DNA of 64,000 nt from Spirochaetota bacterium. Lineage in GTDB: Bacteria > Spirochaetota > JAGLSM01 > JAKPMW01. This document shows positions 48,124 through 57,969 of the stretch, piece by piece. Positions within the stretch are counted from its first letter, which is position 1. Every line of letters starts with the position of its first letter. The position numbers and the translations under genes were made by a program. The notes under the pieces are model-generated. The model saw only the letters and a program-made list of their open reading frames with translations. It was not told where the DNA came from and did not search any database. Location: assembly GCA_031283155.1 (NCBI GenBank), contig JAITCI010000003.1:1-64000 (forward strand), given 5' to 3'.

Positions 48124-48230
48124 TTGCGGGAGGAATGCCCGCGTGTAAAAGCGCGGAAAATTATGAAATACGCATAACAGATCGGAAAATTACTTGGACT
48201 AATTTTTTATTATAAGACTGGTATGGATCG

Positions 48231-48369
48231 TGAGAATTGCGAATCATATGCAATAGAGAGGTAAATTACATTATCTGATTTTTCTCGTATATAGCGTATA
48301 ACAGCGCTCAATAGAGCTGAGAATTGCGGATCGTCTGTAGCGGCGCGGCAAATTACCTTATCTGATTTT
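48231..48369. repeat. Two 52-bp imperfect direct repeats, 87 bp apart
   Basis: TGAGAATTGC-N20-G(T/C)AAATTAC(A/C)TTATCTGATTTT at 48231-48282 and 48318-48369. Confidence 0.85.
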
Positions 48370-48383
48370 CCAAACTATCCCTT

Positions 48384-48974
48384 TTACGCCCGCGCCGCGA
48401 GGCGCTCCTCGACCAGCTCGCAGAGAATATGCCCGATCAGTACATGGCATTCCTGGATACGCGGCGTAACAGTGGAAGGAACGGAAATTATAATATCCGC
48501 GCGCGCCGATACGCCGCCCGCATCACCCGCTCCGATCAAAGCGATGCGCCGTATACCCAGTCTGTCCGCCTCCTCGAGCGCGAGAATGATATTGCGCGAC
48601 TTCCCGGAGGTGGAGATGCCCACCAGTACGTCCCCCCTGCGTCCTTTGGCCTGCACCAGCCGCGCGTACGCGCCCTCGTAGGCGTGATCATTCGCGAAGG
48701 CCGTGATAAAGCTCGTATTCACGTGCAAGGCCTCCGCGTCGAGCGCCTGCCGCTCAAGATAAAATTTTCCGGCGAGTTCCGCCGCGAAATGCTGCGCGTC
48801 GGCGGCGCTCCCCCCGTTCCCGCAAAAGAGCGCCCTGCCACCCTCACGAAAAGCCTGGGTGAGCATATCCGCCGCCCGCGCGACGCCCGTAAGCGTTGCC
48901 TCATCGTTCAGGAGAGCATCGGTAAGCGCTGCGGATTCCCGCATGATCGCCTGAATTTTATCCTCTGTTCGCAT
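48384..48974 (-). CDS. gmhA: Phosphoheptose isomerase (SIS domain)
   Basis: ALFCGNGGSAADAQHFAAELAGKF; GISTSGKSRNII. Confidence 0.93.
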   Translation of the reverse strand: MRTEDKIQAIMRESAALTDALLNDEATLTGVARAADMLTQAFREGGRALFCGNGGSAADAQHFAAELAGKFYLERQALDAEALHVNTSFITAFANDHAYEGAYARLVQAKGRRGDVLVGISTSGKSRNIILALEEADRLGIRRIALIGAGDAGGVSARADIIISVPSTVTPRIQECHVLIGHILCELVEERLAARA

Positions 48975-49000
48975 AAGTTAAGCATCCGCAATATATATTT

Positions 49001-49108
49001 ACATAAGCTAATTTTCCGCAGCATCGCCGTTCATCGCCGCTTGATCGTTTACAGCAACTTAACCGTTTTCCGCAGCTTAATCGTTTAACTCCGCTTAATC
49101 GCTTGCTT
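49001..49108. repeat. Array of six degenerate 18-bp units (block 1)
   Basis: acataagctaattttccg/cagcatcgccgttcatcg/ccgcttgatcgtttacag/caacttaaccgttttccg/cagcttaatcgtttaact/ccgcttaatcgcttgctt. Confidence 0.85.
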
Positions 49109-49157
49109 CCATCCATTCCTCTGGCTTTGCAAAATTTATGTGCAATCATATATATTT

Positions 49158-49265
49158 ACATAAGCTAATTTTCCGCAGCCCAGCCGTTCATTGCCGCTTG
49201 ATCGTTTAACTCCACTCAGCCGTTTTCCGCCGCTTGATCGTTTAACTCCGCTTCCCCGCCAAATT
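49158..49265. repeat. Array of six degenerate 18-bp units (block 2), overlapping the 3' end of the gmhB-like CDS
   Basis: acataagctaattttccg/cagcccagccgttcattg/ccgcttgatcgtttaact/ccactcagccgttttccg/ccgcttgatcgtttaact/ccgcttccccgccaaatt. Confidence 0.85.
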
Positions 49266-50397
49266 TGCGCGCTATCGTTTGCAACAGATCCGCTATCCCG
49301 CCCTTTTGCTCATGGGCATACGGGAACTCGTCCGAAAACAAAAACGTCTCCAGATACGGTAGCGCGATGCGGTCGCTTTCGCTGTCGCCCGCCATAAGGG
49401 AACGCGCGAGATCCAGATGCAGCGCCTCCGCCGCAAGCAAAAGCATACCGGGGCTGGGTTTGCGCCGCAGGCTCCCCCGCGAAAGCTCGGGAATCTCCCC
49501 ATCCTCGTGATACGGGCAGTACCATACCCCATCAACCGCAAGTCCAATCTCCTGCATATGCGCGCACACCCGCGCGTTGACCGCTTCCGCCTCTTCCCGC
49601 GTCACCAATCCTTTGGCTATACCCGCCTGATTGGAAACGATAACGATGGCGGCACCTTTGCGCAGGTAATCGCAGTCCGCAAGCGCCTCGAGCAGCGCAT
49701 CGTTATACACAAGGGTTTCGGGATCGTTGATGTACCCGGTATCCTCAAGCAGCACCCCGTCGCGATCCAGAAACAACGCCGGAAGCGGCGCATCCTCGCT
49801 GATTTTCGCCGGATCATGGTTCCACATCGGTATGGGAAATCCATGGAGCTTACCGACATCGAACACCTGCCTGAAATATTCCGTATCCAAATTTGCCTGC
49901 GGAACATTCTCCAGAAAAAACGCGCGCGTCCCCGCGCAGAGCCCGCCATAGACATACCGCTCCTCCGAACAATTCTCCCGCATCATAAATTCGATTACGG
50001 AGGAACCCCAAAACACATAGCGCGTGTCCGGCGTTTTCTCTTCGCTGTACCGCAGTGCCAGAAGCAATCCATCGGCGCACCGCGCGCACTGCTCAAAAAA
50101 ACAGGAGAGTTCCATTCCAAAAGGGAAACCCGCCTGTATCATCACGCAATGCGCGGATTCGGCGTCCTCAAGCGCCGCCGCAAAGGCGTCTTTGCCGATG
50201 TACGCGCGCAGGGCGAGTTTCTGCCCGAGTTTTTCAGTTACGTCCGTATCCGCATCCCGCGCGTCAATCAGCACCGCTTCCCGGCAGCCCTGCCCTCTAA
50301 GCCATTCGATTTGCCGCGAAAGCGCGGAGGCGCAATCCTCTTCCGCGCGTATCCTGGAATATAATTCGTCAAGCAAAATATAGACTGTTGTATCCAT
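49216..50397 (-). CDS. GmhB-like HAD-IIIA phosphatase with N-terminal degenerate nucleotidyltransferase-like domain
   Basis: PALFLDRDGVLLEDTGYINDPE; VSNQAGIAKGLVT; YCPYHEDG; RKPSPGMLLLAA. Confidence 0.82.
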   Translation of the reverse strand: MDTTVYILLDELYSRIRAEEDCASALSRQIEWLRGQGCREAVLIDARDADTDVTEKLGQKLALRAYIGKDAFAAALEDAESAHCVMIQAGFPFGMELSCFFEQCARCADGLLLALRYSEEKTPDTRYVFWGSSVIEFMMRENCSEERYVYGGLCAGTRAFFLENVPQANLDTEYFRQVFDVGKLHGFPIPMWNHDPAKISEDAPLPALFLDRDGVLLEDTGYINDPETLVYNDALLEALADCDYLRKGAAIVIVSNQAGIAKGLVTREEAEAVNARVCAHMQEIGLAVDGVWYCPYHEDGEIPELSRGSLRRKPSPGMLLLAAEALHLDLARSLMAGDSESDRIALPYLETFLFSDEFPYAHEQKGGIADLLQTIARKFGGEAELNDQAAENG

Positions 50398-50614: not shown

Positions 50615-51526
50615 TCAGCAGGACGAAATAATCGCAAAGATGATGACCACTGCTATGACCCCTAACAACAAGACCAGATCCCAGCCCCCTGCATCTTTTA
50701 TATCCCAATCCAATCCTGGTTCTCTTACATCCCAGCTATACCCGCAGCTATTACACACAGCGTACTTGTGGTTCCTGACCGTTTCTTTTCTTTTCCGTAC
50801 CAACATCCAGAGCAGCCACAGACCGCCCGTGAGCAGAATCCAAAACAGATTCCAAAGGCAAGAACGATGTTGCGACTGGACAAATGTATTGACGCCCACG
50901 TTCACCCTGTCGCTGTTACACTTTGGACATTTCATACCATACATCTGCTGAGTAATTCCTCGCGATTCCGAAAGCCGGTGTGCCGGAGGCATACCGCCAA
51001 GCATGGATCCGCAGTGTTTGCACTTAATAGCTCCATCAGCTATTTCTTCTTTGCAAAATGGACAAAACATCTGCTGAGTAATTCCGCGTGACTCCGGAAG
51101 CCGGTATACCGGAAGCATCTCGTTCTGCTGAATAATTTTGTGCGATTCCGGAAGCATATAAGCCTGTGGAATCTCGTCAAGCATAACCCCGCAGCGTTTA
51201 CACAGAATAGCTCCATCGTCGATTTCTTCGTTGCAAAATGGACAAAACTTCTGCTGCGTAACTTCGCGCGATTCCGAAAGATTGTTCTTTCCCCTCTGGA
51301 TTTTTGCGGTTTCCGTTTTGTCCCCCACAAAATTGTTCTGAATGAGTTGCCGCAGTTCCTTTTCGTCATTCTCAAACTGGTTTGCGGGAGATATGCAAGC
51401 CTGCGGCATCTCGCCAAGCATGGATCCACAGTGTTTACACTTAATAGCTCCATCAGCTATCAAGAAAAATTGGAAAAAGAATATCCTGGCAGAAATGGAA
51501 ACCGTGATCCAAAAGCATATAGACAA
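50615..51526 (-). CDS. Multi-zinc-ribbon membrane protein with internal duplications; 5' end appears truncated
   Basis: Repeats FCPFC(N/K)EEI(D/A)DGAI(L/K)CK(R/H)CG; first copy begins mid-motif (IADGAIKCKHCG). Confidence 0.6.
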   Translation of the reverse strand: MSICFWITVSISARIFFFQFFLIADGAIKCKHCGSMLGEMPQACISPANQFENDEKELRQLIQNNFVGDKTETAKIQRGKNNLSESREVTQQKFCPFCNEEIDDGAILCKRCGVMLDEIPQAYMLPESHKIIQQNEMLPVYRLPESRGITQQMFCPFCKEEIADGAIKCKHCGSMLGGMPPAHRLSESRGITQQMYGMKCPKCNSDRVNVGVNTFVQSQHRSCLWNLFWILLTGGLWLLWMLVRKRKETVRNHKYAVCNSCGYSWDVREPGLDWDIKDAGGWDLVLLLGVIAVVIIFAIISSC

Positions 51527-51607: not shown

Positions 51608-52618
51608 TTACAATTTTTTAATCAGCAACCTGTTATATATTTTTTTCCCGCCGATTATTGTACAGCATTTATAACCAATCCATCGCGCGGAATTCGCAAT
51701 TCCCAAAATTTCAAATTGTTCCGGATTATATTTATCTGCAAATGTAATGGGAACGCCCATGACCCCATCGTAATCTACAGGTATATCTTTGTAAGTGGAT
51801 ACTTCGATCACATCACAATTATCATATTTTGGATATTCTCCGGGATTATATTTTTTATACAATACCAGCTTTTCGTGCCTTTTGGCATGATCCAGATTTG
51901 TGAACCACATAATACTGCCTTTACTGAAATACCGGATACCATTTTCAACTTTTTTTCTTGATTCCGTTTGTATTTCATAATGCGGAGGAACCTGAAACCA
52001 CTTTGTACCGCCGTTATCGACTCCCGGCCAGATTTTATTTTCTTTAATGAGCAAAAAAGTTTCTTTATATGAAAGCGCGTTTACGTCGCCAATTATAATA
52101 AACTTCTTTTTATGCTCAATGAGCTGCGCGACATATTCCCGGAATAATGAAAATGGCGGGTTTGTCACCACAATATCAGATCGCTGCAACAGCTCTATAC
52201 ATTCCGGCGAACGAAAATCGCCGCTCATGGATCGCGTGGGCTCGTTCGTGAATAAAACGCCCTGTTCACCCTGCTCAAAATTCTGCTTCAGCGGCTTTTT
52301 CCTGCTTTTGATAATCGCCTTCTGCACTACTGCCTGCTTATCACCCCGCGCGTCGATACCGCCTTCGTATTCCAGCATATAGCTGGGCTTGTCCAGCTCA
52401 AAATGGGTGGTGATGAGCTTTTTCAAACCAAGCCGCTCAAAGTTGACGATAAAATAATACCAGAAATTGGAAGTTTCGGGATCGTCGCAGTTACAAAATA
52501 CCACCTTGCCCTTAAAATGCTTTGTATAATGCCCAAGTTCCTTTTCAATATCAGAAAGCTGCGTGTAAAATTCGTCGACTTTTTGCCGCCTTGCGTTGGA
52601 TAAACTCATATTTGCCAT
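51608..52618 (-). CDS. EcoRI-family adenine-specific DNA methyltransferase
   Basis: DEFYTQLSDIEKELGHYTKHFKGKVVFCNCDDPETSNFWYYF; SDIVVTNPPFSLFREYV. Confidence 0.9.
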   Translation of the reverse strand: MANMSLSNARRQKVDEFYTQLSDIEKELGHYTKHFKGKVVFCNCDDPETSNFWYYFIVNFERLGLKKLITTHFELDKPSYMLEYEGGIDARGDKQAVVQKAIIKSRKKPLKQNFEQGEQGVLFTNEPTRSMSGDFRSPECIELLQRSDIVVTNPPFSLFREYVAQLIEHKKKFIIIGDVNALSYKETFLLIKENKIWPGVDNGGTKWFQVPPHYEIQTESRKKVENGIRYFSKGSIMWFTNLDHAKRHEKLVLYKKYNPGEYPKYDNCDVIEVSTYKDIPVDYDGVMGVPITFADKYNPEQFEILGIANSARWIGYKCCTIIGGKKIYNRLLIKKL

Positions 52619-56386: not shown

Positions 56387-57969
56387 TTGTCCAGATCCTG
56401 ATGAAAATAGCGTTCAATGTCCCTTCGCTTGGGATTCAGGCTGATCTGCGAACGCGCAAGCCGATCCAGCGCTTCGAGCTGATCTTTTAAGATATTTTTT
56501 GCCAGATCATTTTCCTGAATGGTCTTTTGTTCCATAACAGCCTTGTAAATCCCGATGGCTTTCAGATAATTCCGTTGCGTTTCCGCGCCCTTTGCGCTGT
56601 TCAGCATATGCCGGAAGTGCAGGAGGGGCGAGGCAATGGGAAGCATATCCCAGTTGTACGGAGCGAGGTTGGGACTCTCGCGAAGGATGAGGTCTTCCTC
56701 TGTTTTGAATTTCTGCTCTTCCTTTTGATCCATGGCAATGGTCATGACGGGCGCGCCGCCATATCCGGGCATACCCGCCTGTGGATATGGCGGCATTTGC
56801 CCCGCGCCATGCGTGAACGGAGAGGATGGCGGCGGATGACCCCCGCCCATCATCGGAGGCGGCTGCATGGCTGCACTTCCGGGAGTTTGTCCTTCGGTTT
56901 GCTGTTTTGCCGTCATCTGCGAAGAGGGCGGGGATGGAGGCTGCTGCGGTGGTTTTGGTGAAGCGCTTTCGGCGCCGCCTGCGGCATTGCTCCAGGCCTC
57001 TTCCAGAAATTCCGTGAGATCATCGAGACCGTCTGCGCCGCCTCCTCCTTTGCCGCCTCCTCCTTTGCCGCCTCCGCCTGCGCCGCCTCCGCCTGCGCCA
57101 TCTCCGCCCGCGCCGTCTCCGCCTCCGCCGTCTCCGCCTCCGCCTTCACCGCCTGCGCCGCCTCCGCCTTCACCGCCTTCCCCCTCGGAATCTTGATTTC
57201 CAAGCTGTTCCTGGAACAGGCGATCGAGTTTCGGCGTGGAGGCAAGCTGGATGTTCACATTTTCGATATTGTGAATGACCGTCGAGGCGTCATGGCTGCG
57301 CGAGCGATACTCGTTTGCGAGATCCTCCGACTGGGACAGCAGATCCTGGAATTCGCTCATCTTTCGCGAATCCAGAATGGGCTGGTTGGCGTTGAGATCC
57401 AATTGACTCAGGGCTTCCTGCAGATCCACAAGCGCTTTACGGATAAAGAGGCGCGACTTGACCTGCTTTTCAGAGATACCATGGATCATGTTCTTATAAT
57501 ACTGCTCCACCTCGGAGAGCTTGCCCTCAAGCTTATCCTGGTTACTGCGCATACGATCAAGGATCTGCTCCCCGCGCTCATCGCGTTCGTGGAGTTCTTT
57601 TGTGACCATGTCGCGGATCTCGCCGACGGAATGGCTGATGTTGTCCTTGTATTCGTCAACGGCGAGTTTGAGCTGTTCCAGGCGGAAACCATGTGTGGAG
57701 GAACGCTCAGTATTCAGCGAGAGCTTCTCATCCCGCGCCTGGACTTCTTTTTCAAGCTTTCGCACCTTTGCCATGAGTTCGTTGATGCGCTTGAGTTTTT
57801 TCTCGTTGTCTTCGGAGAGCAGGCTTATCTGATTTTCGTTGATCTTGTCATTCTGCGCAGCCGACTCCTTCAGGGTACTGATGATTTTGTCTTTTTCCCT
57901 GATGATGTCCAGCATTGCGCTCGAGTCGCTGCCTGCTTCCTCTTCGATAAAATCATTATCTTCCGGCAT
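56383..57969 (-). CDS. Coiled-coil protein with Gly-rich low-complexity tract
   Basis: Long heptad region, then EGGEGGGGAGGEGGGGDGGGGDGAGGDG..., then Pro/Gln-rich segment; 4-nt overlap with downstream gene. Confidence 0.72.
   Translation of the reverse strand: MPEDNDFIEEEAGSDSSAMLDIIREKDKIISTLKESAAQNDKINENQISLLSEDNEKKLKRINELMAKVRKLEKEVQARDEKLSLNTERSSTHGFRLEQLKLAVDEYKDNISHSVGEIRDMVTKELHERDERGEQILDRMRSNQDKLEGKLSEVEQYYKNMIHGISEKQVKSRLFIRKALVDLQEALSQLDLNANQPILDSRKMSEFQDLLSQSEDLANEYRSRSHDASTVIHNIENVNIQLASTPKLDRLFQEQLGNQDSEGEGGEGGGGAGGEGGGGDGGGGDGAGGDGAGGGGAGGGGKGGGGKGGGGADGLDDLTEFLEEAWSNAAGGAESASPKPPQQPPSPPSSQMTAKQQTEGQTPGSAAMQPPPMMGGGHPPPSSPFTHGAGQMPPYPQAGMPGYGGAPVMTIAMDQKEEQKFKTEEDLILRESPNLAPYNWDMLPIASPLLHFRHMLNSAKGAETQRNYLKAIGIYKAVMEQKTIQENDLAKNILKDQLEALDRLARSQISLNPKRRDIERYFHQDLDN

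Follow-up and report, generated by a model that had tools for sequence, protein, structure and literature searches.

The window analysed here, 64,000 nucleotides of a Spirochaetota genome, contains a gmhA-like SIS-domain gene (48384-48974, minus strand; PF13580, E 2.1e-23) downstream of a double repeat array, and a gmhB-like HAD open reading frame of 393 aa (49216-50397, minus strand; Pfam HAD families) that runs into the same array. Positions 48991-49096, immediately upstream of gmhA, and 49148-49253 are two copies of one unit, both assigned to the minus strand, which align without gaps at an offset of 157 with 94 of 106 positions identical and 12 substitutions. Each copy consists of an AT-rich, palindrome-derived lead followed by degenerate 18-bp tandem units. 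With the lead excluded, self-identity at lags of 18 and 36 is 0.67 and 0.65 in block 1 (49019-49108) and 0.57 and 0.79 in block 2 (49176-49253); the 99.9% limit in shuffles is about 0.5. The first-pass annotation had described two collinear 18-bp repeat blocks here as a duplicated cassette of a minisatellite, and as a description this is right. It also counted six units per block; the 18-bp units are present, but unit 6 is poor (11/18 identity between the blocks, the duplication ending at 49096/49253), and the first unit in both blocks (ACATAAGCTAATTTTCCG) turns out to be one half of a dispersed palindrome, not a regular 18-mer of the array. One 18-bp unit in each block starts with CGGAAAA, as does the left arm of the palindrome, which leaves the impression that the 18-bp units possibly grew from it. 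The spacer between the copies (49097-49147, minus strand) matches 49256-49276 at 14 of 21 nucleotides (p about 0.03), a weak resemblance that may mark a duplicated remnant of the gmhB tail, reading IAHKF against IARKF in the gene.

The array and the lead with its flank each occur at a single locus in the genome (2.50 Mb, 89 contigs), and a genome-wide search with the 18-bp unit, a check proposed in the first-pass annotation, found elsewhere only single matches at background level. No array was found in a same-genus genome (G001), and a search of the named relatives gave one match only, which was distant. In the 64-kb window, one other local duplication is equally strong (about 50961-51280, offset 180) and lies within an open reading frame with tandem zinc ribbons (50615-51526), whose internal 180-bp duplication is about 81% identical. 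The window also encodes an EcoRI-type adenine methylase (51608-52618; PF13651, E 1.5e-120), and at 57029-57185 it carries a 15-bp repeat array (AASSFAASACAASA...) where an open frame begins, perhaps on the non-coding strand.

The array had been placed in the gmhB-gmhA intergenic region, which holds only in part, because the gmhB-like ORF extends into block 2: its 3' end, which encodes the C-terminus, takes up the final 38 bp of the block (49216-49253). The array supplies the last residues of the protein, EAELNDQAAENG, and the stop codon (49216-49218). The alignment of the G001 homologue to the gmhB-like protein stops at residue 361, and by reading the G001 protein ends in GLGG; the native gmhB end therefore probably lay near IARKFGG. 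Gene order in G001 is reversed, with gmhA upstream of a gmhB fusion. The N-terminal half of the gmhB-like protein matches, without the GGLGTRL motif, a nucleotidyltransferase-like domain in G001, and it is probably a dead domain. On the minus strand at 48958-49149 there is indeed, as the first-pass annotation noted, an open reading frame in register with the 18-bp period, 63 aa long with KRLSGV repeats, which overlaps the gmhA start. When the two copies are compared in the KRLSGV frame, seven codon differences are non-synonymous and one is synonymous; with differences mostly of the non-synonymous kind, there is no sign that this ORF is translated. The array region had no match in Rfam, its RNA fold was no better than that of shuffles (z 0.62), terminators were sought and none found, and promoter scores were at background level. 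The decayed lead does not fold into a hairpin; the consensus palindrome does.

What, then, is the AT-rich lead? The first-pass annotation recognised that it is nearly identical at 48991 and 49148, as it is, but missed that both leads belong to a dispersed palindrome family. The consensus of 15 copies, GGAAAATTACATTATGTAATTTTCC, is a 25-nt palindrome with perfect symmetry about a central T, and both block leads are decayed versions of it: GGAAAATTAGCTTATGTAAATATAT in copy 1 (48993-49017) and its counterpart in copy 2 (49150-49174), both on the minus strand and both scoring 26.2 bits. The leads retain the left arm and centre, and most of the right arm has been lost. On the other side of gmhA, the nrdG-gmhA intergenic region (48124-48384) is filled by three family palindromes on the plus strand, 76 and 87 nt apart (48184-48208, 24.5 bits; 48260-48284, 26.8 bits; 48347-48371, 31.5 bits), and the flank of the third repeats that of the second over 52 nt at 79% identity and an offset of 87. 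These scores come from a symmetric matrix built solely from copies on other contigs, which avoids circularity with the copies in the window. The five best matches in the window, at 48345, 48258, 48182, 48991 and 49148 (31.5 to 24.5 bits), all fall in the two intergenic regions flanking gmhA, whereas the sixth-best, which is not a family member, scores 14.8 bits; the maximum per 64 kb in 30 null runs averaged 13.6 bits and reached 24.4 at most.

A pattern drawn from the lead and the nrdG-gmhA region found 23 matches in the genome versus two for its reversed control, a count that is partly circular because window copies went into the pattern. A looser palindrome pattern found 19 matches at 12 places and none for the reversed control; the same pattern gave no match in G001 and few, near background, in other relatives. 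A covariance model, with 150 candidates scored per genome in ten relatives, found no strong match. There is no covariation between the palindrome arms, which decay without compensatory change. Recognisable copies number roughly 20-30, a rough figure in that the sampled stretches were partly picked for containing matches. The Y1_Tnp profile of the RAYT transposases (PF01797) had no match in this genome, which is 94% complete, and matched in five of 14 control genomes.

The palindrome is also found within at least six conserved genes, and where this was tested, homology resumes in frame after the insertion. Three copies lie within residues 430-523 of a LysRS/EpmA-like protein (L132, C10:42134-43846), where the insert is 94 aa against 7 in a bacterial LysRS of known structure and 93 against 5 in G001. 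Two further, more diverged copies occur in the N-terminal region of the same protein, giving two insertion sites and about five palindromes in total. In a cysteine desulfurase (C86:17612), the insert is 54 aa against 11 in a solved homologue and 48 against 14 in the G001 orthologue, which is 72% identical; it is Gly-rich and in frame (L093:17519-17640), with the palindrome at its end, and its layout, in which degenerate GC-rich repeats lead up to the palindrome, is that of the gmhB array. G001 has no insert in either the cysteine desulfurase or the LysRS/EpmA-like gene. The insert in a GT9 heptosyltransferase (C48) is 56 aa against 21. A dehydratase-activase fusion (C77) has two palindrome clusters; for this activase, for an acyl-CoA synthetase (C78) and for a U32-like ORF (C58), in-frame insertion was judged by reading alone. 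The palindromes are read in two frames or more (GKL.. and AEN..). Most sites have two or three palindromes with local flanks duplicated, at offsets of 87 in the EpmA-like gene, 75 in GT9, and about 100 and 114 in the activase. Between different sites nothing substantial is shared beyond the palindrome of about 25-29 nt, setting aside 100% matches between neighbouring copies whose flanks overlap and are thus the same DNA. Matches in ribosomal protein S3 (C18) and an NtrC-type regulator (C49) look like native coding sequence, as do those in an HMG-CoA synthase-like gene (C26) and an ATP-synthase-F-like ORF (C23), which do not look inserted; none of these four was counted.

We consider it probable that the double array is what remains of a dispersed palindrome whose insertion at the end of gmhB was followed by slippage, duplication and decay. 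The 25-nt palindrome GGAAAATTACATTATGTAATTTTCC would first have entered the gmhB-like gene at its 3' end; replication slippage would then have expanded the GC-rich DNA 5' of it, in the gmhB sense, to some five degenerate 18-bp units. Array and palindrome could have been copied together in a single tandem duplication of about 157 bp, after which both copies and the palindrome arms would have decayed, leaving the gmhB frame to end within the array. We infer both this order of events and slippage as the mechanism. Several findings sit awkwardly with this history: no empty version of the locus is known, G001 having a different gene order; both leads lack most of the right arm; the 18-bp period was found only at the gmhB array; the match that suggests a duplicated gmhB tail is weak; a few pattern matches in genes (C23, C26) look native; and neither a transposase, sought as Y1_Tnp, nor a target-site duplication was identified. 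The double array is most likely a non-functional scar: no function is indicated, given RNA that folds no better than shuffled sequences do, arms lacking covariation, the absence of a terminator and a repeat-peptide frame that is not conserved between the copies.

A simpler history would be a plain local minisatellite, formed by slippage and one duplication, with a lead that resembles the palindrome by chance. The absence of the 18-bp units elsewhere in the genome fits such a history, as does the different sequence that neighbours the palindromes at other loci, but a matrix free of window copies gives both leads a score that is topped in 64 kb only by family copies 600-1000 bp away, and we regard the local origin as unlikely. 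Alternatively, the palindromes could be operator sites for a regulator of gmhA and its neighbours, making the array a cluster of binding sites. Dyad symmetry and the multiple sites in intergenic clusters on either side of gmhA are what such a proposal would predict; many copies, however, lie deep within coding sequence in inserted segments, the arms decay uncompensated, and the nrdG copies are positioned downstream of a gene, so that regulation of this kind appears improbable.

Could the array instead be coding, either by extending the gmhB-like protein at its C-terminus or through the KRLSGV ORF as a real peptide? A period of 18 preserves the frame, which is open in both copies, the last gmhB residues do come from the array, and family copies within genes are translated if their conserved hosts are expressed. 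Yet the excess of non-synonymous differences in the KRLSGV frame, the overlap of that ORF with the gmhA start and the gmhB stop within the array make a coding role quite improbable. That the segment was duplicated by misassembly, for which one could cite the draft state of the genome in 89 contigs, is very improbable, since 12 of 106 positions distinguish the copies and their flanks are different, although further identical copies of the array could have been collapsed in the assembly.

How does the palindrome family compare with known repeats? REPs of the GTAG and CGTC super-families are palindromes of 20-40 nt that are mainly intergenic and also occur in ORFs of conserved proteins (PMC3733652); intragenic REPs are often in dimers or groups and sometimes supply a stop codon (PMC3733652). 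The family described here is similar in being a 25-nt palindrome that is dispersed (12 places versus none in the control), occurs in groups and also in conserved genes, and is associated with a stop codon. Unlike REPs, it is AT-rich and the GGAAAATTACATTATGTAATTTTCC consensus of 15 copies has neither a GTAG nor a CGTC tag, its 20-30 or so copies fall short of a high copy number, and its groups arise with duplicated host flanks. GTAG REPs are typically associated with a RAYT (Y1_Tnp) transposase, whereas no such gene was found in this 94% complete genome. MITEs are marked by terminal inverted repeats, target-site duplications and a parent transposase; a palindrome is present here, and the search for a parent element covered Y1_Tnp.

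Insertion in frame into conserved genes, here the LysRS/EpmA-like, cysteine desulfurase and GT9 genes, is reminiscent of the RPEs, dispersed palindromes that lie in frame in unrelated protein-coding genes of Rickettsia (PMC10969869). However, RPEs are about 150 bp and encode a conserved peptide (PMC10969869), whereas the elements here are about 25 nt, encode no conserved peptide and are read in at least two frames. PARCELs, tandem repeats with dyad symmetry in coding sequence, form 25-residue amphipathic domains in ORFs without assigned function (PMC2996958). Repeats with dyad symmetry within coding sequence are common to both, but the inserts here are short, lie in housekeeping enzymes and by reading share no peptide repeat, and their periods vary between loci from 75 to 114 nt. 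The gmhB array has the short degenerate tandem units of a VNTR or minisatellite, some of them within a gene's 3' end, but it adjoins a dispersed palindrome and is known from one genome of the species. Since the family departs from REPs in tag, copy number and transposase, and from RPEs in length and conserved peptide, we take it to be a new family of broadly the same kind. The gmhB array itself is ordinary, and the palindrome family is a modest addition to a known kind of element.

Taken alone, the array is a neutral minisatellite scar, and its value is that it led to a palindrome family that lies in frame within conserved enzymes. Palindromes within genes are already documented in Rickettsia and in some REP-bearing bacteria (PMC3733652, PMC10969869). 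This spirochaete genome adds a further lineage, one in which most sites show local tandem duplication, as a place to study how inserted palindromes become protein insertions. A broader proposal, which we put forward tentatively and think more doubtful than not, is that an AT-rich, tagless palindrome, restricted to a single species and lacking any recognisable transposase, inserts both in intergenic DNA and within genes and favours the tandem duplication of adjoining host DNA. If so, the palindrome would give rise to new repeat segments, in frame, within housekeeping enzymes, and the gmhB array could be viewed as a product that lost its frame.

Other repeats were seen in the same genome. Over-represented motifs in a 464-kb genome sample include AACATCCTGTT, ACATCCATGT and CCTGTTCTAG, and the sample contains a REP-like hairpin around CTTCCGAAGTAGGAGTACGTGCTTCGGAA (L089, L129). 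FlaA (PF04620) scored above its cut-off at four places in the genome and in none of the 14 control genomes, which makes the organism a probable spirochaete. The U32-like ORF (L131, C58:1-900) carries an acidic tail of degenerate repeats (RAESADMDSD...), a further in-frame array.
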